The notes under the pieces are model-generated. The model saw nothing but the letters and a program-made list of their open reading frames with translations, ran no database searches and had not been told where the DNA came from. A stretch of DNA of 64,000 nucleotides from positions 1-64,000 of the forward strand of contig CANJCB010000019.1 in assembly GCA_947473305.1 (NCBI GenBank), given 5' to 3'. This DNA comes from Rhodospirillales bacterium. Lineage in GTDB: Bacteria > Pseudomonadota > Alphaproteobacteria > ATCC43930 > CGMCC-115725. The first letter of the stretch is position 1; every line of letters starts with the position of its first letter. Both the position numbers and the translations under genes were made by a program. Below, one piece after another: positions 37,421 through 53,816 of this stretch.

Positions 37421-39814
37421 ATGGCCGAACATTATAAGATCGCGATCATTGGATCGGGTCCCGCTGGGCTGAGCGCTGCCGCCCATGCGGCCGAACTCGG
37501 CGTGTCGCATATCCTTTTCGAGCGCGCCAAGCAGTATTCCGACACGATCTACAAATTCCAGAAGCGCAAGCATGTCATGGCCGCGCCGGAGACTCTTCCC
37601 CTGCGCAGCGACCTGCCCTTCAAGGAAAGCAGCCGCGAAGAAATCCTCGGCGGCTGGGCCGACGGCATGGGCGCCCGCGCGAGCAACGTGCGCATGGGCA
37701 CCGAAGTGACCGGGATCACCGGCCAGAAGGGCGCTTTCAAGATCGCCACGAAGGGCGGCGAAGAATTCACGGCCGAAGCCGTCATCCTGTCGATCGGCGT
37801 CCAGGGCAACCTCCGCCAGCTTGGCGTTCCGGGCGACAACTGGGAGCGGGTGCAGTACCAACTCGACGATCCGGACGAATATCAGAACGAAAACATCATC
37901 ATCGTCGGCGGCGGTGACGCCGGCATCGAAAACGCCCTGGCGCTGTCGGTCGGCAACAATGTGTCGATCGTGAACAACCAGGCCGAATTCGCCTATGCCA
38001 AGCCCGCCAACCGCGCGCTGATCCTGGCGGCGATCAAGGAAGGCACGATCCAGGGGATCATGTCGGCCAACGCCAAGCAGGTCGAGCCGGGTCTCATGAC
38101 CCTGAGCGTCCCGGACGGCGAGATCCAGGTTAAATGCGACCGGATCATCGCCCGTATCGGCGCCCTGCCGCCCCGCAAATTCGTCGAATCCTGCGGCATC
38201 CAGTTTTCGAGCCCGGCGCCTACCGCCTTCCCGCATGTCTCCGACACCTACGAGTCGAACGTGCCCGGCATGTATATCGTCGGCGCGCTGGCGGGCTACC
38301 CCCTGATCAAGCAATGCATGAACCAGGGCTACGAGGTCGTCGAATACATCCTCGGCAACAATATCCCGCCCGCCGACGAGCCGCTCATCCAGGCGAAGCT
38401 CGACCATATCAAGCCGGCGATCAATCCCTCGCGCCTCATCGAGCTCATCCGCGAGCGGCTGCCGGTCTATAAGGTCCTGACGACCCTGCAGATCCGCGAG
38501 ATGCTGCTCGGCTCCGAAATCCACTTCAAGAAGCCGGGCGAGGTGATCTTCGCGCGGAACGACTACACGAACTCTTTCTGGTCGATCATCGACGGCCAGG
38601 CCGACATCCAGATCAATCCCACCAATCCGGCAGAGGTCGTGACCCTCCAGCCCGGGCAGTTCTTTGGCGAGATGGGCCTCATTTCCGGTCGCCGCCGCAC
38701 CGCCACCACCGTGGCGCGCACGGACTGCCTGCTGCTGGAAGTGCCGCGCAACTCCATGATCCGGCTGCAGCGCTCGGTCCCGGAAGTAAAGCGGGTCATC
38801 GACGAAGTCGCGATCATCCGCCAGATCAAGACCTATCTCACCCCGACAGTGGACGATGCCGCTCTCAGCGAAGTCGTGGCTTCCTCCGAGATCGTCGCCC
38901 TGAAGCCGGGCGAGGTTCTGATCCAGGAGGGGACCGACGACGATTCGGTCTTCCTGATCCGCAGCGGCTCGGTGACGGTCTCCAGCACCATCGGCGGCCA
39001 GGAAGTCGTGCTCGCCTACCTGCCGGCGGGCAATTACGTCGGCGAGATGGCGCTCCTGACGAAACAGCACCGCTCCGCGACGGTCAAGGCGGCGGTCGCC
39101 TCCGAGGCCATCAAGATCAACAGCACCGCCTTCCGCGCCCTTCTCGACCGGGCGCCGGACCTTATGAAGCAGGTCAAGGGCAAGCTCGAAACCCGGATGC
39201 GCGAGCGCGTCCAGGTCGAGGCGAGACCCGAGGATACCGGCCTCATCGAATTCCTGCTGCGGCAGGGCTTCTCCGAAGCGACCGACGTTCTGCTCATCGA
39301 CGAGTCGCTCTGCGTCCGCTGCGACAACTGCGAAAAGGCCTGCGCCGAGACCCATCACGGCGTCTCGCGTCTCACCCGCGAGGCCGGCCCGACCTTCGAT
39401 TCGGTCCATGTGCCGACCTCCTGCCGGCATTGCGAGCATCCTCACTGCATGAAGGACTGCCCGCCGGACGCGATCCGTCGCGCACCGAACGGCGAAGTCT
39501 TCATCGGCGACAATTGCATCGGCTGCGGCAACTGCGAGCGCAACTGCCCCTATGGCGTCATTCATATGGCGGCCGTTCCGGCGGAGAAGCCGAGCCTTCT
39601 GAACTGGCTGCTCTGGGGCGCCGGCCCCGGCCCGGGCGAAGACAAGTCCGAGGCGGGCATGAATGCGCGCACCGGTTCCAAGCACGCCACCAAATGCGAC
39701 ATGTGCAAGGACGACCCGGCCGGCCCGGCCTGCGTGCGGTCCTGCCCGACGGGTGCGGCGATCCGCGTCAATCCCGAACAATTCCTCAATTTCCTGCGCG
39801 AGCAGGGACGGTAG
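37421..39814 (+). CDS. FAD/NAD(P) reductase fused to two cNMP-binding domains and a 4x[4Fe-4S] ferredoxin
   Basis: The 797-residue chain holds three modules. Residues 1-320: a flavoprotein reductase with GSGPAG (11-16) and a second dinucleotide turn VGGGDAG (about 162-168). It lacks the CxxC of thioredoxin reductase. Residues ~355-475 and ~480-600: two cNMP-binding domains (FFGEMGLISGRRRTAT near 414; VGEMALLTKQHRSATV near 540). Residues 625-797: four [4Fe-4S] motifs with Cys at 631/634/637/641, 668/671/676/680, 699/702/705/709 and 759/762/771/775, the DmsB/HybA-type pattern. It should pass electrons from NAD(P)H through FAD to the clusters, with cyclic-nucleotide control. It has no signal peptide, so it is cytosolic. 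It leads an operon with haem proteins; GGGGGA precedes the ATG. Confidence 0.85.
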   Translation: MAEHYKIAIIGSGPAGLSAAAHAAELGVSHILFERAKQYSDTIYKFQKRKHVMAAPETLPLRSDLPFKESSREEILGGWADGMGARASNVRMGTEVTGITGQKGAFKIATKGGEEFTAEAVILSIGVQGNLRQLGVPGDNWERVQYQLDDPDEYQNENIIIVGGGDAGIENALALSVGNNVSIVNNQAEFAYAKPANRALILAAIKEGTIQGIMSANAKQVEPGLMTLSVPDGEIQVKCDRIIARIGALPPRKFVESCGIQFSSPAPTAFPHVSDTYESNVPGMYIVGALAGYPLIKQCMNQGYEVVEYILGNNIPPADEPLIQAKLDHIKPAINPSRLIELIRERLPVYKVLTTLQIREMLLGSEIHFKKPGEVIFARNDYTNSFWSIIDGQADIQINPTNPAEVVTLQPGQFFGEMGLISGRRRTATTVARTDCLLLEVPRNSMIRLQRSVPEVKRVIDEVAIIRQIKTYLTPTVDDAALSEVVASSEIVALKPGEVLIQEGTDDDSVFLIRSGSVTVSSTIGGQEVVLAYLPAGNYVGEMALLTKQHRSATVKAAVASEAIKINSTAFRALLDRAPDLMKQVKGKLETRMRERVQVEARPEDTGLIEFLLRQGFSEATDVLLIDESLCVRCDNCEKACAETHHGVSRLTREAGPTFDSVHVPTSCRHCEHPHCMKDCPPDAIRRAPNGEVFIGDNCIGCGNCERNCPYGVIHMAAVPAEKPSLLNWLLWGAGPGPGEDKSEAGMNARTGSKHATKCDMCKDDPAGPACVRSCPTGAAIRVNPEQFLNFLREQGR

Positions 39815-39820
39815 GCCGAC

Positions 39821-40705
39821 ATGAGCGATAGAGCGGGAACCGCCAACACCCCGATGCGCGCCCATGGCGGCGCGGATCACCATGAATCCTTCCTGGTCTA
39901 CAGGAAGTTCAAGTGGCTCAAGATCGCAGCCCTGCTGTCACTGGTCTGCTTCATCGCCTATCTGGTGCATCAGCCCAAGGACATCCCCAACGGGGGAACC
40001 TGGCTCGGCTACACGCTGGGCGGCACGGGTGCGGCGCTCATCGTCTGGCTCACCTGGTTCGGCTATCGCAAGCGCGCCTATAGCTCAGGCGCCGGCCGGG
40101 TCCAGGCCTGGCTTTCCGCCCATGTTTATCTGGGTCTGGCCCTGGTGGTCGTGGCGACGCTCCACAGCGGTTTCCGCTTTGCCTGGAATATCCATACCTT
40201 CACCTATTGCCTCGTGCTGATCGTCGTGGCGAGCGGCATTTTTGGTGTCTTCACCTATGCGCGCTATCCGTCGCTGATGACGGCGAACCGGCGCGGCCTC
40301 ACCACAGCGCAGATGATGGCCAATATCGGCGCCATCGACGCCGAGCTTCGCACGGCCGCGAGTTCTCTCGGCGACAAGCTGGCGGCGCTCGTCGTCAAGG
40401 CGACGCAGGAGACCAAGGTCGGCGGCGGCGTCTGGGAGCAGCTGCGGGGGCGGCCCCGGTACTGCGGAACGGACGAGGCGGCGCGGGAACTTCAGACTGT
40501 GCTGCGCCAGGACCTCGGCGCCGAAGAACACGAAGCCCGCAAGCTCATGGTCCTCCTGACCCGCAAGAGTCAGATGCTGGCCCAGATGCGCCGGGACATC
40601 CAATACAAGGCGATGATGGACATCTGGCTTTACGTCCATGTGCCTTTGGCGATAGCGCTCGTGGTCGCACTTGCGACCCACGTCTTCGCTGTCTTCTTCT
40701 ACTGA
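39821..40705 (+). CDS. Integral membrane protein with a di-haem b pattern
   Basis: The 294-residue protein has about five helices (near 34-50, 62-81, 98-116, 125-146, 269-293). Two helices each carry His pairs 14 residues apart: H101/H115 and H273/H287. This i/i+14 pattern on two helices is the classic bis-His di-haem arrangement of cytochrome b and ferric-reductase-like proteins. A charged loop (about 150-265) with helical content faces the cytosol or periplasm. It starts 6 bp after the reductase gene. It would carry electrons from the iron-sulfur module across the inner membrane to the FHA-decahaem protein. I do not recognise a named family. Confidence 0.75.
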   Translation: MSDRAGTANTPMRAHGGADHHESFLVYRKFKWLKIAALLSLVCFIAYLVHQPKDIPNGGTWLGYTLGGTGAALIVWLTWFGYRKRAYSSGAGRVQAWLSAHVYLGLALVVVATLHSGFRFAWNIHTFTYCLVLIVVASGIFGVFTYARYPSLMTANRRGLTTAQMMANIGAIDAELRTAASSLGDKLAALVVKATQETKVGGGVWEQLRGRPRYCGTDEAARELQTVLRQDLGAEEHEARKLMVLLTRKSQMLAQMRRDIQYKAMMDIWLYVHVPLAIALVVALATHVFAVFFY

Positions 40706-40717
40706 GCGGGGCGGGAC

Positions 40718-42421
40718 GTGCAGGCGCAAATCACCTCCATAACCCGCCGCGCTCGCGGCGATCTTCGCAAATCCTCGGTCGTCACCGGAGGCTATCTCCG
40801 CATCGGCCGGAACGCGCATAGCGAGATTCTGCTCTCCGACCTTCGCATGGCGATGGAGGAGGCCGAGCTTCATATCGAAAACGGTGAGTTGCGCCTCATC
40901 CGCAAGGGCACAAACCCCCTCACGGTCAATGGCCAGGGCACCAATACGGGGCTTCTCAAGGTTGGAGATGAACTCCGGCTTGGGCCATACCGGCTGGTGA
41001 TCGAAGAGCCTCCCGAGGGAGTGGACGCCGCGATCGGCGTCGAACTCGTGACGCCTTTGAGCGAAGACGTCGAACGGCTGACCAGCACGAGCCGCATCGG
41101 CCTCGCCAACACCTGGTTCTCCCGGCGCGGTTTCGCCTGGAGCCTCGCTCTCGTCATCGCGTTGCTTTTCCTTGCCTTCCCGCTGGCCGGGCACTTCATG
41201 TCCCGCGCCTCCCAGGACGGGTCGGGCAGCGCTCCGGCGGTGCTCGCCGCTTTCCACAAGACCTGGAGCGCCGGCGAGGTTTCCAACCCGCATAAGTTCT
41301 TCTCCAGCAATTGCGCCAATTGCCATGAGCAGAGCTTCAAGACCGTTCAGGATGAGGCCTGCGCCTCCTGCCACAATACGGTCAATCATCATTTCGATCC
41401 GGCCACGGTCACCCCCGCAGCCGCAGGCCAATTGAGCTGCACGAACTGCCACAAGGAACACCGTGGCCCCGTGATGGCCTCGGGAGCCACGCAAGGCGTC
41501 TGCCTGGATTGCCATGCCGACATCAAGAAGGTCGCTCCCAATACGAAGCTGGCGAACGCCGGGGATTTCTCCAGCGGTCATCCGCCGTTCCACCCGATCG
41601 TCTCGCTCGACGGCAAGACCCTGGCGCGCGTCGACAGCATGGACGCCAAGCAGCAGTCGAACCTCAAGTTCCCCCATTCGACCCATCTCGCCCAGGGCGG
41701 TGTCCGTGGCCAGACCGGCATGGTGAAGCTTGAATGCTCCAACTGCCATGTGCCCGAACGCGACGGCGCGCTCATGAAGCCCGTCGCTTTCGAGCAGAGC
41801 TGCGCCAATTGCCATAGCCTGGCCTTTACGGCGGAAGGCGGCGGCCGCGCGGTTCCCCATGGCAATCCGGATCTTGCCAAGCGCACGGTCGAGGAATTCT
41901 TCTCCAAGGTTGCGCTCGACGGGGGCTCGGTCGATACGACCGCTCCGGAAACCATCCGCCGCCGTCCCGGCGTGCCCTTGACCGATCCGCAGCGCCTGGA
42001 AGCGGCGCAATGGGCCAAGGTCAAGGCAGCGGAAGCGATGGAAATCGTCTTCGACGACAAGCGCGGCTGCGGTTCCTGCCATACGGTCCAGAAGACCGAC
42101 GCCGGCTATGGCATCGTCCCGGTGAAGATTTCCTGGGTCTCGATGCCGGAAGCGCATTTCAATCACGCCAAGCATGCGGCTGTAACCTGCACCAACTGTC
42201 ATAACGCTCCGGCATCGACGAGCAGCGCGGACATCCTGCTGCCCCAGATCGCCACCTGCCAGAATTGCCATGGCGGGGTTGGAGAAACCACCAAGGTGGC
42301 GTCGAGCTGCATGACCTGTCATGACCTGCATCGCAAGGAACTCGGCCCCATGCGCCCGCTGCCCGCCGGCAAGACGAGCCGCATGCCGCAGCCGGTCGCG
42401 ATCCGCTCGGGGACCAATTGA
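40718..42421 (+). CDS. FHA domain-transmembrane-decahaem cytochrome c fusion
   Basis: This 567-residue protein starts at GTG 40718 after GGGGCGGG. Residues ~20-110 form an FHA-like domain (YLRIGRNAHSEILLSD, then VNGQGTNTGLLKVGDELRLG). A helix at about 138-160 follows. The rest carries ten CxxCH haem motifs (first Cys 199, last motif at 531) and looks periplasmic. The FHA is degenerate: the usual S-R-x-H is replaced by A-M-E-E, so phosphothreonine binding is doubtful. The chain is thus a membrane-anchored decahaem cytochrome with a cytosolic docking domain. It ends 2 bp before the next gene. Fusion of FHA with multihaem c is not something I recall as described. Confidence 0.85.
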   Translation: MQAQITSITRRARGDLRKSSVVTGGYLRIGRNAHSEILLSDLRMAMEEAELHIENGELRLIRKGTNPLTVNGQGTNTGLLKVGDELRLGPYRLVIEEPPEGVDAAIGVELVTPLSEDVERLTSTSRIGLANTWFSRRGFAWSLALVIALLFLAFPLAGHFMSRASQDGSGSAPAVLAAFHKTWSAGEVSNPHKFFSSNCANCHEQSFKTVQDEACASCHNTVNHHFDPATVTPAAAGQLSCTNCHKEHRGPVMASGATQGVCLDCHADIKKVAPNTKLANAGDFSSGHPPFHPIVSLDGKTLARVDSMDAKQQSNLKFPHSTHLAQGGVRGQTGMVKLECSNCHVPERDGALMKPVAFEQSCANCHSLAFTAEGGGRAVPHGNPDLAKRTVEEFFSKVALDGGSVDTTAPETIRRRPGVPLTDPQRLEAAQWAKVKAAEAMEIVFDDKRGCGSCHTVQKTDAGYGIVPVKISWVSMPEAHFNHAKHAAVTCTNCHNAPASTSSADILLPQIATCQNCHGGVGETTKVASSCMTCHDLHRKELGPMRPLPAGKTSRMPQPVAIRSGTN

Positions 42422-42423
42422 AC

Positions 42424-43749
42424 ATGCGGTCGAAAGCGCTCAGAGGAATCCGCCTCGCTATCCTGGCCACCTTCGCGGTTGCCGGTTTCGCAACCCAAGG
42501 CATGGCAGGGCCTCTTCCGTCCCAATCCAAGGACGTGCATATGGGGACCGGCACCTGTGCCGAATCCATGTGCCACGGCGCGGGCAATTCCTGGGAACGC
42601 TCGACCGTCCCGCAGAACGAATATATCATCTGGTCGCGGCAGGATAAGCACTCCAAGGCCTATACGGCCCTTGGCGAAGAGCGCGGCCAGCGGATCGCCA
42701 AGAACCTCGGCATCGGCGACGCCCAGAAGGCGCCGCTCTGCCTGAGCTGCCATACGGATGTCGCCGCCGCGGACAAGCGCGGCTGGCGCTATAAGGAAGC
42801 GGACGGCGTCGGCTGCGAGGCCTGTCACGGGCCGGCCGAAAAATGGCTGCAGGTCCATGTCACCGGCATTTCGAGCCACAAGGAGAATGTCGAAGCCGGC
42901 ATGTACGGATTGGAAGATCCAGTCGACCGCGCGAAGGTCTGCGTCGGCTGTCACGTGACCGCCTCGAACCCGCTCTTCAATCACCGGCTTTACGGCGCGG
43001 GCCATCCCCGTATCGTCTTCGAGCTCGATACGTTCACCGCGACCGAGCCCGCCCATTACCGCATCACCGACGCCTATCGGACCCGCAAAGTCGTCGCCAA
43101 TGGTGCCCGCACCTGGGCTGTCGGCCAAGCCGCCGTGGCGCAGGTCGTTCTGACCCAGGTCTCCGATGCCCAGCGGAACCACGACGGGATCATGCCCGCG
43201 CTGGCGACGTTCGATTGCTTTGCCTGCCACCATCAGCTCGGCAGCATGAGCGGCAGCCTGGCGCAGCAGCCCGTCGGCACCATGCGCATCAATCTCTCGA
43301 GCCTGCAGATGCTGAAGGTCGTTGCCGCAGAAGTCGATCCGCCCCTGGCCGACCGGCTCGGCCGCAACATCACGGCGCTCCGCGCTTCCGTGCGCGAAGG
43401 CTTCCAGCCGATGGCGCGCGCCGCGGCCGACGCCGCGCAGACGGTAACCGAACTCTCGGCCAAGATCGGTCAGCGCGCCTACGACCAGAATCAGATGAAA
43501 ACCCTGCTGCGCGCCCTTGTCCGGGCCGGCGTGGCGGGAGAGTATGCAAGTTACGTCGATGCGGAACAGGCCACTATGGGCATTGCGGCTGTTCTCTCCG
43601 CCTTGACGGTATCAGGTTCGATCAACGAGCCGCGTTATCGAGATGCCCTAGCCAAGCTCTACGAAGCCATGGCGAAACCCGAAACCTTCAAGCTGGACGC
43701 CTTCCGCTCTTCGGTTGAAACCCTTGGACGGGCCACTGACGCCCTGTGA
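42424..43749 (+). CDS. Pentahaem cytochrome c (cytochrome c554-like), paralogue 1
   Basis: The 441-residue periplasmic protein has a signal peptide ending near MAGP. It carries one CX4CH motif (CAESMCH, Cys45) and four CxxCH motifs (CLSCH, CEACH, CVGCH, CFACHH, last Cys at 265). GAGHPRIVFELDTF and other His residues could be distal haem ligands. The C-terminal third has no haem motifs and is helical. It matches the c554-type family and is paralogous to the protein at 47187 (shared order of motifs, GAGHPR, NEYxIWS). ATG 42424 is preferred over an overlapping TTG at 42418. Confidence 0.85.
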   Translation: MRSKALRGIRLAILATFAVAGFATQGMAGPLPSQSKDVHMGTGTCAESMCHGAGNSWERSTVPQNEYIIWSRQDKHSKAYTALGEERGQRIAKNLGIGDAQKAPLCLSCHTDVAAADKRGWRYKEADGVGCEACHGPAEKWLQVHVTGISSHKENVEAGMYGLEDPVDRAKVCVGCHVTASNPLFNHRLYGAGHPRIVFELDTFTATEPAHYRITDAYRTRKVVANGARTWAVGQAAVAQVVLTQVSDAQRNHDGIMPALATFDCFACHHQLGSMSGSLAQQPVGTMRINLSSLQMLKVVAAEVDPPLADRLGRNITALRASVREGFQPMARAAADAAQTVTELSAKIGQRAYDQNQMKTLLRALVRAGVAGEYASYVDAEQATMGIAAVLSALTVSGSINEPRYRDALAKLYEAMAKPETFKLDAFRSSVETLGRATDAL

Positions 43750-43757
43750 GAAGAATC

Positions 43758-45560
43758 ATGCGCATCGCTCGACCTGTTCGCTTTCAAGATCCCCACGGTA
43801 TGAACCAGAACCTGACATCTCTTTTCCGACGTGGCCTCACGCTCGTGGCGCTTTTCGCCCTTGGCTTCCTGTTCTGGACCGCCGATGCGCGCGCCGACGT
43901 GACGCCCCAAGATCCCCACGCCGCCATGTTCTCGGAGACCGATTATCCCTCGGCCGCCCAGTGCGGGCAGTGCCATCCCAAGGTCTTCGAGGAATGGGCG
44001 TCTTCCAACCACGCCTATGCCTCGATCTCGCCGATGTTCCATAAGTTCGAACAGGCGATTTCGGATCTTTCCTCCGGGACCATCGGCACCTTCTGCGTGC
44101 GCTGCCACCAGCAGGTCGGCACTCAGCGCGGCGAAGGACGCGAGGCGGCGGTCTGGGAGCGGTCTCTGGTCGCCCGTGAAGGCATCACCTGCATCACCTG
44201 CCATCGCATCAACCAGGAATTCACCCACGTCAACGGCGAGCGCAGCATCGTCCCCGGCACCATCAACTATCCGGTGACGGGCTCCGGCTCCTCACAGTTG
44301 CTACCCCAGGTGATCCTGGATAAGGCCACTTACGGCGTCAATCCCACGCCGGAAGGCGACGGCACCAAGATCCATGCCGGTGTCGCCAAGTTCGACCAGA
44401 TCAGCAAGTCCGAATTCTGCGTCGGTTGCCATCAGGTGGCGGTCCATCCAGGCATCAACCTGGAAGTGGTCTGGGCGCAGTATCGCGACTCACCAGCCCA
44501 TGCGCAGGGCATTACCTGCCAAGACTGCCACATGGGCAAGATCCCCGGCGTCGCCGGCGAATATGCCAAGGGCGCGATCGCGATGGCCAATGGCCGGGTC
44601 GTCGGCAGCGACCAGCAGAAGCATTCCAACCATGCCTTCTACGGTCCCGGCTATCCGATCGCACATCCCGGTCTTTTTCCCTTCAACACCCGCTCGCTCA
44701 AGTGGACCATCGAGCAGTGGCTGACCTACGACTACCGTCAGCCCTGGGGCAAGTCCGCTTGGGAAGACAAGGTGAAGCGGGGCGAGGTCAAGGCCGAATT
44801 CCCCGAGGCCTGGAAAACGCGCGCCGACCGCGAGGAAGGCCGTCTCATCATCGAGCAGAACCAGCGTGGCCTGGAGGCCAAGAAGATCCTTCGCCGCGCG
44901 GTGATGGAGAATGCGGGCCACATTGAAGGGCCGTTCTTCTCCGGGCCGCCGACTGTCGGCAAGGGCCTCGACTTCCGATACAGGATCGTCAACGACGACC
45001 CCGGCCACAACATGCCGTCGGGTTCGCTCGGCGCGCAGCCGGAAATCTGGATGAACGTCGTCCTGACGGGTCCTGATGGGAGCCGAGTGTTCGAATCGGG
45101 TTATGTGGACAGCACCGGCGACATGGCCGACCAGCATTCGCTGGAAGTCCGAGAAGGAAAGGTCCCCTTCGACACCCAACTCGTCAATCTCCAGACCAAG
45201 TTCCTGACGACGAACATCAAGGGAACCGATCGCGAGATGTATCTGCCGGTGAATTTCGACATCGACCAGATCCCCTTCATCCGGCCCTCGGGCGTGCCGA
45301 CCTCGGTTCTCAACCATCCGCCATTCATCCGGATGGAAGGCCGCAGCATCCCGCCGCTGGGTTATCGCGACGCCAACTACTCGGTCTCGGCGGACAAGAT
45401 GACCAAGCCCGGGACCTATACCTTGCAGGTGCGCTTGCGCAGTCGGGCGGAGCCGATCTACTTCATGAAATTCGTCGGTGCGACCCAGGACATGCTGCAG
45501 AATATCAATGACTGGATGATCGATATTCATCCGCAAGCATCCACCTTCGAGGTGCGTTGA
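43758..45560 (+). CDS. Pentahaem multihaem cytochrome c
   Basis: About 600 residues with an N-terminal hydrophobic signal (LFRRGLTLVALFALGFLFW, cleaved near ARAD). Five CxxCH motifs lie between residues 69 and 258: CGQCH, CVRCH, CITCH, CVGCH, CQDCH. The C-terminal ~340 residues carry no haem motif and look like beta-rich domains (FRYRIVNDDPGHNMPSGS). GTG 43746 and ATG 43800 are alternative starts; ATG 43758 follows GAGAAG. It is in a tight operon (9 bp after the previous gene) and its stop overlaps the porin start. The function is probably electron transfer or redox catalysis in the periplasm. Confidence 0.82.
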   Translation: MRIARPVRFQDPHGMNQNLTSLFRRGLTLVALFALGFLFWTADARADVTPQDPHAAMFSETDYPSAAQCGQCHPKVFEEWASSNHAYASISPMFHKFEQAISDLSSGTIGTFCVRCHQQVGTQRGEGREAAVWERSLVAREGITCITCHRINQEFTHVNGERSIVPGTINYPVTGSGSSQLLPQVILDKATYGVNPTPEGDGTKIHAGVAKFDQISKSEFCVGCHQVAVHPGINLEVVWAQYRDSPAHAQGITCQDCHMGKIPGVAGEYAKGAIAMANGRVVGSDQQKHSNHAFYGPGYPIAHPGLFPFNTRSLKWTIEQWLTYDYRQPWGKSAWEDKVKRGEVKAEFPEAWKTRADREEGRLIIEQNQRGLEAKKILRRAVMENAGHIEGPFFSGPPTVGKGLDFRYRIVNDDPGHNMPSGSLGAQPEIWMNVVLTGPDGSRVFESGYVDSTGDMADQHSLEVREGKVPFDTQLVNLQTKFLTTNIKGTDREMYLPVNFDIDQIPFIRPSGVPTSVLNHPPFIRMEGRSIPPLGYRDANYSVSADKMTKPGTYTLQVRLRSRAEPIYFMKFVGATQDMLQNINDWMIDIHPQASTFEVR

Positions 45561-47164
45561 TGGCAAGGACTTTCACCTTCGGGACGGGGAGTTCGCTCCT
45601 CGTCCTAGCCCTCCTCGCCTTCGGCGCAATAAATCCCGCCTCCGCGCAGATTCCTCAGCGGTCGATGGATACCCAGGGCGCCGACCCGTCGACGGCCCCC
45701 TCGCATACGGAAGAAATCCACGAGCTTTTCGAAAAAAAGCCCTTGGTCATGGATCCGGCCGCGAAGCCTACGGCCTTCGATACGAAGCGCTTCGGCCCTG
45801 ACCCGAGCTATCCCGAAAATTACAACCAGAAGGAACAGCTCGAGATCTATGGCGGCAAGTACGCCGTCCCGTCCCAGCGTCCCGCCATCGAATTCGGCTA
45901 TCCGCAGTATTCGACGGGACCTATACCGGAAGGTCTGACCCTCTTCGGCGACAAGAACCTGTCCCGTCCCCAACTCATGATCTTTGGCGATGTCCGCTCC
46001 GCGGTCGCCTATAATGACGGGGGAAAGAAAGGCAACGCCCAGGTGGCGGTGCGGGCCAATATCGACGTCGACCTGGCGCTGACCTCGACCGAACGTATTC
46101 ATGCCTTCTTCCGCCCCCTCGATCGCGGCGGGCAGTTCACCCGCTACGAATTCGCAGGCCCGAACAAGACCGACGGACATTTCCTCCTCAACGGAAATAT
46201 CCAGACGCTCTTCTTCGAGGGTGATATCGGATCCATCCTCGGCGGCATCCGGAACCAATACGCGTCCTTCGACATGCCTATCGCTTTCGGCAAGATGCCC
46301 CTGTTCCTGCAGAACGGCATCTGGGCCAATAGCGCGATGATCGGCGGCGCGGTGACGATCCCGTCGAAGAACAGCCGCCTGCTCGACATCACGAACATGG
46401 ACATCACCTTCTTCGGCGGCCGGGACGACGTGTCGACCCCGGCCATCGTGCAGCGTGGGACCAACCAGTTCGACCTCCATGCCGGCCGCATAGCCGGTGT
46501 GACCGGCTGGGCCGATATGGGGGGCGGCTACCTCGAATGGGGCTACGGCCGCGTCGAGGACGGCCGCCAGAACGGTCCCGGTTTCGGCTACAACAACTTC
46601 ACCCTGGCCTGGAGCAAGCGCTACTTCGGCAAGGTATCGAACAGCCTGCGCGTGATCTGGAACACCGGGCAGGATCCGGGAACCGGCAACGGCCGCCAGA
46701 CGGCCGACGGCTTCCTCCTTCTCATGGAAAATTCCTGGATTTCGCCGCTTGAACAGACGCTGGTTCCCTATGCCAACTTCTTCTTCGGCAGCGACCGGCC
46801 GCAGGCGTTGATCCGCGACGCCGGCGCAGGCGGACCGTTGAACAATACCGGCATCAACTTCGAGACGGACGGCCTCACAGGCTTCCCGAAACTCGACGAT
46901 AGCGGCAACAACACTTACGGCGGCGCGATCGGGGTGGAATATCTCTTCAGCCTCGAGCAGCAGATCGTCGTCGAAGCGGCAACCGTGCAGACTATGAAGA
47001 GCCGGGCTGACCGGATCGCCAAGGGACCGCAATACGCACTTGGGATCCGCTATCAGAGGCCGTTGACGAAGAGTCTTATCCTGCGTCTCGACGGTATCGT
47101 GGCCAAGCGCATCAGCGACGACGACGTCGCCGGCGCGCGTGTTGAACTACGTTGGAAGTTCTGA
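45560..47164 (+). CDS. Outer-membrane beta-barrel protein (porin-like)
   Basis: The 534-residue protein has a signal peptide (ending ASAQ) and contains no cysteine at all. After ~100 residues of soluble, Pro-rich sequence it shows alternating hydrophobic strands with many Gly, Tyr, Phe and Trp (FGYNNFTLAWSKRYFG, VPYANFFFGSD). It ends in GARVELRWKF, the C-terminal aromatic residue used by the Bam machinery. I infer a barrel; a specific porin family is not recognised. Its ATG overlaps the previous stop (TGATG). In this operon it may be the sleeve through which a multihaem cytochrome reaches outside. Confidence 0.75.
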   Translation: MARTFTFGTGSSLLVLALLAFGAINPASAQIPQRSMDTQGADPSTAPSHTEEIHELFEKKPLVMDPAAKPTAFDTKRFGPDPSYPENYNQKEQLEIYGGKYAVPSQRPAIEFGYPQYSTGPIPEGLTLFGDKNLSRPQLMIFGDVRSAVAYNDGGKKGNAQVAVRANIDVDLALTSTERIHAFFRPLDRGGQFTRYEFAGPNKTDGHFLLNGNIQTLFFEGDIGSILGGIRNQYASFDMPIAFGKMPLFLQNGIWANSAMIGGAVTIPSKNSRLLDITNMDITFFGGRDDVSTPAIVQRGTNQFDLHAGRIAGVTGWADMGGGYLEWGYGRVEDGRQNGPGFGYNNFTLAWSKRYFGKVSNSLRVIWNTGQDPGTGNGRQTADGFLLLMENSWISPLEQTLVPYANFFFGSDRPQALIRDAGAGGPLNNTGINFETDGLTGFPKLDDSGNNTYGGAIGVEYLFSLEQQIVVEAATVQTMKSRADRIAKGPQYALGIRYQRPLTKSLILRLDGIVAKRISDDDVAGARVELRWKF

Positions 47165-47186
47165 ACTTTTGAAGAGGGGGGTGCCC

Positions 47187-48521
47187 ATGTCTTTCGGCCA
47201 GCGCATCGTGTCCTGGGGCATCTGGGCCGCCCTCGGGATTGGCCTTGTCCTTTCCACCGGAGGAGCCATGGCTCAATCGGCCCAGGACGGGATCCATCTC
47301 GGCGTCACCACCTGTGCCGGCAGCACCTGCCATGGCCGGGTGGAGCGTTTCGCCAACTCCCCAATCGCCCAGAACGAATATCTCATCTGGTCGCAGAAGG
47401 ACCCGCACGCGAAGGCCTTCAAGGCCTTGGAGAGCGAGCGGGGCAAGCGAATCGCGCAGAACCTGGGCCTGCCCAGCGCCCAGTCGGCGGAACTCTGCCT
47501 CGGCTGTCACACGGATAACGCCCCCGCTGCCAAGCGCAGCCGGCAGTTCCAGCTTGCGGACGGCGTCGGATGCGAAACCTGCCATGGCGCCGCCGAAAAG
47601 TGGCTCGGCATCCATGTGGCCGGCAGCCCGCATAACGAGAATGTGGCGGCCGGCATGTATCCGACCGACCAGCCCGTTGCCCGGGCGAAGCTTTGCCTCT
47701 CCTGCCATATGGGCGACAACAGCAAGTATCCGACCCATCAGCTCATGGGCGCGGGGCATCCCCGCATTCCCTTCGAGCTCGATACCTTCACGGCGATCCA
47801 GCCGGCGCATTACAACGTCAACGCCGACTACGTCCGCCGCAAGGGTCAGCCCAACGGCGTGCAGATCTGGGCCATCGGCCAGGCTGTCGCGCTCGGCAAC
47901 ATGATGAACGGGCTCCTCGACGCCAAGCGGAACCGCGACGGCGCGATCCCGGACTTCGTGTTCTTCGAATGCCAGTCCTGCCATCACCCGATGACCCAGC
48001 CCCGCTGGGAAGCGCGGGCTTCGACGGGTCTTGGGCCGGGGCAGATCCTGTTCAACGACGCCAATGCGCTGATGCTGCGGATCGCGGCCCAGCGCGTGGC
48101 GCCCAACCTGGCCCAGCAGCTCTTCGACCGCACCGTGGCACTGCACCAGGGCATGAACGACAGCCGCCAGAAGGTCCTGGAGGAAGCCGCGAAGCTTCGC
48201 GACATCTCCAACCAACTGGTCCAGGCCTTCGCCGAGCGTCGCTTCAACGCGGAGGATATTCGGGCGCTCATGGACGGCGTGATCGACGCCGGGGTCAACC
48301 GTAACGACTTCACCGCATACGGCGGCGCCGAACAGGCCAGCATGGCTCTGTCGGCGATCCTCTCGACCATGCGGAACCTCGGTCAGATCGACGACGGCAA
48401 GTTCAAGACGGCCCAGGCCGCGCTGAACAAGGTCTATGCCGCGGTCGAGAAGGACGACGCCTTCAAGCCGTCGACCTTCGTCGCGGCGCTGAAGGACTTC
48501 CAGGCGGCGATGCCGAAGTAA
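47187..48521 (+). CDS. Pentahaem cytochrome c (cytochrome c554-like), paralogue 2
   Basis: The 444-residue protein has a signal peptide (MSFGQRIVSWGIWAALGIGL, cleaved near AMAQ). It repeats the layout of the protein at 42424: one CX4CH motif (CAGSTCH, Cys43) and four CxxCH motifs (CLGCH, CETCH, CLSCH, CQSCHH, last Cys 262), with GAGHPRIPFELDTF. The C-terminal third is helical and haem-free. The two copies flank the pentahaem protein and the porin. ATG 47187 follows GAGGGGG; an upstream extension to 47139 overlaps the porin gene. It ends the operon, and a strong terminator follows. Confidence 0.85.
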   Translation: MSFGQRIVSWGIWAALGIGLVLSTGGAMAQSAQDGIHLGVTTCAGSTCHGRVERFANSPIAQNEYLIWSQKDPHAKAFKALESERGKRIAQNLGLPSAQSAELCLGCHTDNAPAAKRSRQFQLADGVGCETCHGAAEKWLGIHVAGSPHNENVAAGMYPTDQPVARAKLCLSCHMGDNSKYPTHQLMGAGHPRIPFELDTFTAIQPAHYNVNADYVRRKGQPNGVQIWAIGQAVALGNMMNGLLDAKRNRDGAIPDFVFFECQSCHHPMTQPRWEARASTGLGPGQILFNDANALMLRIAAQRVAPNLAQQLFDRTVALHQGMNDSRQKVLEEAAKLRDISNQLVQAFAERRFNAEDIRALMDGVIDAGVNRNDFTAYGGAEQASMALSAILSTMRNLGQIDDGKFKTAQAALNKVYAAVEKDDAFKPSTFVAALKDFQAAMPK

Positions 48522-48547
48522 GCTTCGCCAAAAGCACCAAGGATCGA

Positions 48548-48574
48548 GGGAGGGCCTGGGGCCCTCCCTTTTTT
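48548..48574 (+). terminator. Rho-independent terminator of the electron-transfer operon
   Basis: GGGAGGGCC and GGCCCTCCC form a perfect 9-bp GC stem with a 3-base loop, followed by TTTTTT. It lies 26 bp after the last cytochrome gene and before the convergent DMT gene. Confidence 0.9.
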
Positions 48575-52580: not shown

Positions 52581-53816
52581 ATGTTGCCCAAGAGTAGTTT
52601 CTGCATTGTCGAAGATGACCGGGCAGTCAGTCATCGGATTTCCTCAATATTGTCCGAAGCCGGTCATTCGGTGACTGTCGCGGCAACCAGCGTTGAGGCT
52701 TTCGACACCATCGCCCAGTCCGCGCCGGACTGTATCCTCGTCGATATCCTGCTTCCCCATATCGACGGCTACGACTTTTGTCGGCGCGTTCGGCAGGATC
52801 CGAGGCTGCGCCGCACCAAGATCGTCGTCATGTCCACGAAGCCCTATGAGGCCGATCGCCGCGAAGCGATCGCCATGGGTGCTGCCGGCTATATCCTGAA
52901 GCCGATTCGGGACAACCTACTGGCGCTCCTGGAAGAAATCCTCCTCGACCGGGTCGAGCTTCATTATTGGGGCGTGCGCGGCACATTGCCGGTGCCCGGC
53001 CGGGGAACCCTGCGCTACGGCGGGAACACGTCCTGCGTCACCATGAGCTTCGGGTCTGACGGCCTCTTCATCTTCGACGCCGGCAGCGGCATCAAGGAGT
53101 TGTCCGACCACCTGATGCAGAAAAAGGCCCGGATCAACGGGCATCTCTTCATCTCCCATTGCCATTGGGACCATATCAACGCGCTGCCCTTCCTGGCGCC
53201 CCTCTACACCCCCGGCAACGAACTCGAGATCATGGGGCCGCCCAATGGCGACCGCCGCATGCTGAAACTGATTAGCGACCAGATGGACGGCGTCTATTTC
53301 CCCGTCACGATCCGGGAATTCGGCTCCCGCGTCAGCTTCCGCGACCTTCGCGAGGAGCAGATGCTGATCGAAGGCATGATGGTCGAGACGATGCTCCTGT
53401 CCCATCCCGGAGCCTGCCTCGGCTATAAGGTCAGCTTCGGCAATACCTCGCTCTGCTACGTCACGGACAACGAGCTTTTCCCCGAGGACACGCCGCAGCA
53501 CGATCCCCGCTATGTCGAAAAGCTCGCTGATTTTGTCCGGGGCGCCGACATCCTCATCACCGACAGCACCTATACGGACGAGGAATATCAGAAGAAAATC
53601 GGCTGGGGCCATTCCTGCCTCACCGAAGTGGCGAAGCTCGCGCATCGCGCCCAGGTGAAGAAGCTCCACCTCTTCCACCATGATCCGGCGCAATCGGACG
53701 ATGCGATTGACCGCAAGCGCAGCCTTACCCAGGCGGTGCTCGACAGCCTGGGCTCGGATACGATCTGCGAAGCCCCGGCCGAGGGCGACACCTTCTCTTT
53801 CAGCAGAAGCGCCTAA
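52581..53816 (+). CDS. Response regulator receiver fused to a metallo-beta-lactamase-fold hydrolase
   Basis: The 411-residue protein joins a receiver domain (1-120: E11/D12/D13 acid pocket, phosphoacceptor Asp55 in LVDILLPH, Lys107 in YILKPI) to an MBL-fold domain (~125-411) with RYGGNTSCV near 145 and SHCHWDH (H193, H195, D197, H198) as the metal site. A further His is near [13 protein letters not shown], Asp at YVTDNE, and a late His at LFHHDP. Phosphorylation would directly switch a hydrolase. No histidine kinase is adjacent. The substrate could be a cyclic nucleotide or phosphodiester, as in RNase Z/PDE-like MBLs. Confidence 0.87.

Follow-up and report, generated by a model that had tools for sequence, protein, structure and literature searches.

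The window analysed here is a stretch of 64,000 nucleotides, in which seven co-directional open reading frames (g1 to g7) lie on the + strand at positions 37421-48521 and are followed by a hairpin:

37421..39814 (+), g1: FAD-NAD(P) reductase with two cNMP domains and four [4Fe-4S] motifs; putative cytosolic electron entry
39821..40705 (+), g2: di-haem-b inner-membrane protein (the 'IMP' of PCC4, see below)
40718..42421 (+), g3: degenerate FHA domain, one TM helix and a periplasmic decahaem cytochrome c
42418..43749 (+), g4: c554-family pentahaem cytochrome (PF13435), first haem motif CX4CH
43746..45560 (+), g5: pentahaem cytochrome of the PCC4 core, with a beta-rich domain at its C-terminus
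45557..47164 (+), g6: outer-membrane barrel, modelled as OprD/Occ-type, with a conserved N-terminal extension
47139..48521 (+), g7: pentahaem cytochrome with CX4CH; paralogue of g4, 41% identical
48546..48570 (+): intrinsic terminator, an 11-pair GC-rich hairpin with a T-run

The arrangement of seven genes on one strand closed by a terminator, proposed in the sequence-only reading, is thus found in full. The first two junctions are gaps of 6 bp (g1/g2) and 12 bp (g2/g3), the next three are 4-bp overlaps, and g6 and g7 overlap by 26 bp in the frame as listed; were the internal ATG at 47187 the start of g7, they would be 22 bp apart. The terminator stem is the longest among 13 such matches, the total number of which equals that expected by chance. 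A scan for sigma-70 promoters gave nothing convincing, which says little since the window has 63% GC and its host is probably alphaproteobacterial. Elsewhere in the window, 52581-53816 (+) encodes a response-regulator receiver fused to a beta-lactamase-fold domain (PF00072 + PF12706). The haem motifs of g3, g4, g5 and g7 add up to 10 + 5 + 5 + 5 = 25. All are CXXCH except the opening motifs of g4 and g7, which are CX4CH and leave 23 of the standard form; the earlier count of 25 is right if these two are included, as is that of three pentahaem cytochromes (g4, g5 and g7, with five motifs each).

At the start of the operon, g1 has by Pfam a Pyr_redox domain and two cNMP domains, to which a PF13247 Fe-S domain is fused, and its 16 C-terminal cysteines are arranged as four [4Fe-4S] motifs, in agreement with the FAD reductase proposed before. 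Its FAD-NAD(P) part is of the TrxR/YpdA type, and its relatives in the PDB are YpdA, PKA-R and HycB-type ferredoxins. No CxxC was found in the FAD part of g1, which makes a disulphide reductase unlikely; in other words, a FAD/NAD fold of this kind, without a redox CxxC, would probably release its electrons via the Fe-S domain. TrxR-like ferredoxin-NADP reductases provide the analogy by which electrons probably pass from the flavin to the Fe-S tail of g1. In all seven full-length orthologues aligned, each of the two cNMP domains keeps an intact phosphate-binding cassette (FGE..L...R.[TS]A); in the alignment of cNMP proteins from the type II loci described below, most keep only the first cassette intact. 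Moreover, the window's own genome contains six class III nucleotide cyclase domains.

The second gene product, g2, carries WLSAHVYLGLALVVVATLH and WLYVHVPLAIALVVALATH, which are two WX3HX13H motifs, as befits the bis-His di-haem membrane protein suggested earlier, together with SGIFG, an SGXXG motif. This combination of SGXXG with two WX3HX13H motifs is the mark of the PCC3/PCC4 inner-membrane proteins (PMC5566968). Hydropathy gives g2 four clear TM helices and a weak fifth, where the PCC4 IMP is described with five (PMC5566968). A search of the window's own genome for the NapC/NirT family gave no match. Overall, the operon has the domains for a chain from NAD(P)H through FAD, Fe/S and haem b to haem c, and retains cyclic-nucleotide-binding residues, which is consistent, at the level of sequence, with the earlier proposal of an NAD(P)H-to-envelope chain under nucleotide control.

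Of the FHA-TM-decahaem architecture ascribed to g3, the single TM helix (139-157) and the 10 CXXCH motifs, with a Cytochrome_C7 match, are clear; the FHA domain is degenerate and weakly detected (E 1.6e-4, with a Yop-YscD match at 6.5e-7). Since the match is weak and the Ser of the phosphopeptide motif (SxxH) is missing in the orthologues aligned, the domain is read as structural, and its proposed role as a signalling reader is not supported. The paralogues g4 and g7 are c554-type cytochromes (PF13435), and the opening CX4CH is kept in nearly all orthologues of their family. One pentahaem elsewhere (L019:8537-9937) has CGGSTCN in place of CX4CH as its first haem motif, possibly from a sequencing error or a lost haem. 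In four loci (L114:7260-10986, L119:6211-10725, L120:3180-10638 and L125:9015-14634) a CX4CH pentahaem gene has neighbours that look by eye like type II secretion genes (GspE-, GspF- and pseudopilin-like ORFs), a hint that a cytochrome may be secreted. In both g4/g7 and g5, exactly five non-motif His are fully invariant for five haems, the number that bis-His carriers would be expected to have.

The conservation of g5 is pronounced. Its identity to nearly all relatives, drawn from several phyla, is about 50-64%, with the two most divergent at 35-36%, and dozens of columns are invariant across 52 sequences; this is not the work of chance. It is distant kin of the cytochrome c552 5ze8. Its AlphaFold2 model is haem-free and weak where the haems would lie, and a fold search with it found no relative with confidence (best E 2.5e-3, TM-scores about 0.1).

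These components lead to PCC4, a candidate electron-exchange system proposed by He et al. in 2017, which consists of a porin, multihaem cytochromes with 4, 5 and 10 haems, an IMP with five TM helices and an Fe-S/flavin redox protein (PMC5566968). It has a subgroup I in Hyphomicrobium and a subgroup II in Zeta-, Gamma- and Alphaproteobacteria and Planctomycetes; the latter has a separate PF13247 Fe-S gene upstream of the IMP and another redox gene upstream of the tetrahaem, and the former has no PF13247 Fe-S gene (PMC5566968). In our literature search no experimental work on any PCC4 system was found, and a search for later PCC4 work and for cNMP, FHA, multihaem and LVIVD decahaem proteins gave two directly relevant papers, He et al. 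(2017) and PMC13264449 (2026).

A scan of one species-level genome collection with g5 gave 277 relatives, mostly from metagenome-assembled genomes, and the 80 kept span Pseudomonadota, Planctomycetota, Verrucomicrobiota, Myxococcota, Nitrospirota, Elusimicrobiota and Gemmatimonadota. In their loci g6 adjoins g5 wherever the contig allows, with few exceptions, and g6 is 37-51% identical to the barrel adjoining g5 in relatives including Hyphomicrobium facile; that these are the paper's own IMG genes is inferred from the matching description. Around the g5-g6 pair three inner modules occur. Type I (Hyphomicrobium) has a Fer2-FAD-NAD reductase, tetrahaem, IMP and decahaem, with g5-g6 divergent; type II (Planctomycetes, gamma, alpha and others) has a FAD/NAD-Fer2 reductase, tetrahaem, a separate 2xcNMP+4Fe-4S protein, IMP and decahaem; type III, that of the window, has the fused g1, IMP, FHA-decahaem and CX4CH pentahaem. 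The two PCC4 subgroups correspond to types I and II in gene content, Fe-S gene and direction, a match by description in which the domain layouts are those of the loci found here.

The maximum-likelihood g5 tree places the window in an 18-row clade (SH-aLRT 99) composed of type III or probable type III loci and of two rows on whose contigs the type cannot be read, and the Hyphomicrobium rows form a clade of their own. L019 and L024, both proteobacterial loci, share the order g1-g2-g3-(CX4CH pentahaem)-g5-g6 exactly with the window, as do L023 and L025, each of which is cut at one end. The seven-gene order, whose recurrence was put forward as a check, is thereby found again for six of the seven genes; the full set with two CX4CH pentahaems, in L021, is permuted. 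The system is rare in the window's own family: among 61 genomes searched, the window's own included, g5 has a relative in one other family member, and that relative is distant (40% identity). Two divergent clusters, L008 and L009, whose g5 is 35-36% identical and of which one belongs to this family, share a long branch that stands apart from the remaining PCC4-type rows.

Set against PCC4, therefore, the operon has the homologous g5 pentahaem and g6 porin, a decahaem, an IMP with the identical signature and a flavin/Fe-S partner. It differs in having two PF13435 pentahaems with CX4CH in place of the PF13435 tetrahaem, an FHA-fused decahaem, a TrxR-type rather than a Fer2-FAD-NAD reductase, a single protein that joins the flavin, cNMP and Fe-S domains, and one collinear operon. 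Nor does it have the layout of either subgroup, PF13247 being present, unlike in subgroup I, and fused in g1 rather than separate, unlike in subgroup II. Most likely, then, it is a third, differently wired version of PCC4, a variant of a published candidate and not a new kind of system, contrary to the initial impression that this set of parts was unlike those known.

The barrel requires separate consideration. As stated earlier g6 is an outer-membrane barrel without Cys: it has none, and AlphaFold2 gives a barrel (pLDDT 83.5, from 49 sequences). In Foldseek the MOMP, Occ/OprD and AlgE porins rank first, and alignment of the model with OpdQ by VIA-align (Z 26.9, rmsd 2.8 A over 320 residues, model 137-535) runs from the first to the last strand, the likeness being one of fold only, at about 10% identity. 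No MtrB-type barrels are among the 50 structural matches listed for g6, its Pfam search gave no family at E<=1e-3, and no MtrB/PioB sequence homology to the operon was found. OprD-family barrels have 18 strands. A folded pentahaem should not fit inside a barrel of this size, which favours a docking platform for g5 or a solute channel. On the matches listed, g6 models as an OprD-type solute porin and not as a 26-strand MtrB sheath or Mtr-like conduit, a class assignment that comes from a predicted model without partners and is the weakest structural inference here.

The inner part of the operon is found beyond the g5-g6 pair. Among 385 alphaproteobacterial genomes g4-type cytochromes occur in 36, g5 in 30 and full-length g1 in 35; g1 and g4 share 34 genomes against 3.3 expected, and g1 and g5 share 8 against 2.7 (n=385 in both cases, with significance inflated by kinship). 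Expressed differently, g4 is present in 34 of the 35 g1-bearing genomes and g5 in 8 of the 35, from which it follows that the inner module does not depend on g5-g6: g1-g2-g3 with the CX4CH pentahaem is a separable module. Indeed, in clusters from genomes with g1, mostly without g5, most of the other g1 genomes examined have a different outer module beside g1-g2-g3, as at L111:1900-9471 and in further loci (L113, L120, L122, L123, L125, L126, L140-L141, L143, L146-L151, L157-L159). Its three parts are a decahaem of ~1290 aa with LVIVD repeats, for which the window's genome has no match, an HbpS-like protein, and a barrel resembling alginate exporters, whose PF13372 match lies just at the cut-off. 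One genome (G199; L120, L121) has both outer modules, the second set being g4-g5-g6, with a single full-length g1 match. These loci fit, by description, the 'group 1' PCC of ghost-rock metagenomes, which has a large decahaem next to a ~20-strand porin and a ferredoxin-NADP reductase nearby (PMC13264449); the matching loci carry the homologous g1-g2-g3-g4 inner module, and differ from the window in having the LVIVD decahaem and alginate-exporter-like barrel instead of g5-g6.

How such a chain would operate can be proposed from its parts, in a reading about which we are evenly divided, namely that of a PCC4-type chain of a third subtype in which a NAD(P)H-fed, cNMP-tuned flow runs outward along 25 haems and ends on an acceptor at the outer membrane. 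NAD(P)H would reduce the FAD of g1 and, through it, the four [4Fe-4S] clusters, from which electrons would cross the inner membrane by the two b haems of g2 to the decahaem g3, anchored on the outer face of that membrane. Mobile pentahaems g4/g7 would then relay them to g5 at the outer membrane, paired with g6, which may admit a small soluble acceptor (or shuttle or chelate) to g5, or dock g5, with no cytochrome wire inside; a cyclic nucleotide bound to g1 would tune electron entry. We infer this order, direction, nucleotide effect and acceptor; what is observed is the gene set with its conservation, motifs, phylogeny and separable modules, along with the fold class to which the barrel model belongs. 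Like MtrCAB/PioAB, the operon combines an inner-membrane donor, periplasmic multihaems and an outer-membrane barrel, but its entry appears to be NAD(P)H rather than quinol and its barrel is of OprD size. With NADPH oxidase/ferric reductases (FRD) it shares a di-haem membrane core with two HX13H fed by a flavin NAD(P)H reductase, and differs in its separate proteins, Fe-S relay and haem-c acceptors.

A rather unlikely alternative is that g6 imports one specific small molecule and g5 reduces it in the periplasm as the last step, the other genes being a dedicated electron supply. The OprD-type channel of the g6 model, the very high sequence constraint on g5 and its distant kinship to 5ze8 agree with it, but with five invariant non-motif His available for five haems, none of the haems is obviously left open.

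With regard to direction, the NAD-binding flavin reductase of other PCC4-type clusters has a different fold (Fer2-FAD-NAD), and as such reductases, in two unrelated folds, occur in all three architectures, NAD(P)H entry would recur in each. Electrons of Fe(II)-like donors would have to be driven uphill, against the membrane potential, to reduce NAD(P)+. Because of this, the recurrent NAD-binding reductases and the absence of RuBisCO from a search of the window's own genome, net outward flow is preferred. He et al. model PCC4 flow inward to quinone (PMC5566968), such that electrons of extracellular Fe(II)/Mn(II) would pass through g2 to quinone, with g1 a side branch; PCC4 does occur in genomes of Fe(II) oxidisers and Hyphomicrobium, and the IMP resembles a quinone-reactive cytochrome b (PMC5566968), but the same three points make inward flow unlikely. 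Equally unlikely is an insulated conduit in which g5 sits inside g6 and carries haems across the outer membrane in the manner of MtrAB: g5 and g6 are neighbours in nearly all loci with both on the contig and the N-terminal extension of g6 is conserved among relatives, but g6 matches OprD-type porins along the whole barrel, its profile has no sequence match among PDB chains, and MtrB uses 26 strands to enclose a cytochrome of ~80 x 30 x 35 A (PMC7198977).

That the inner module is re-used with another outer module suggests that electron export through the envelope has a plug-in architecture. Tentatively, and with somewhat more doubt than assent, g1-g2-g3-g4 may be a general cNMP-tuned NAD(P)H export module, present in many bacteria, that plugs interchangeably into at least two unrelated outer modules, the barrel serving as a solute channel. 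If so, the label 'porin-cytochrome' would cover a second mechanism, in which the barrel is not a haem sheath. The separability of the module and the OprD-type model of g6 go beyond the literature found. The present subtype is also the clearest on electron entry, with its fused NAD(P)H-FAD-Fe/S protein and intact cNMP sites, and it is found in a named strain, Solimonas terrae KIS83-12, such that the direction, acceptor and regulation of the chain become testable.
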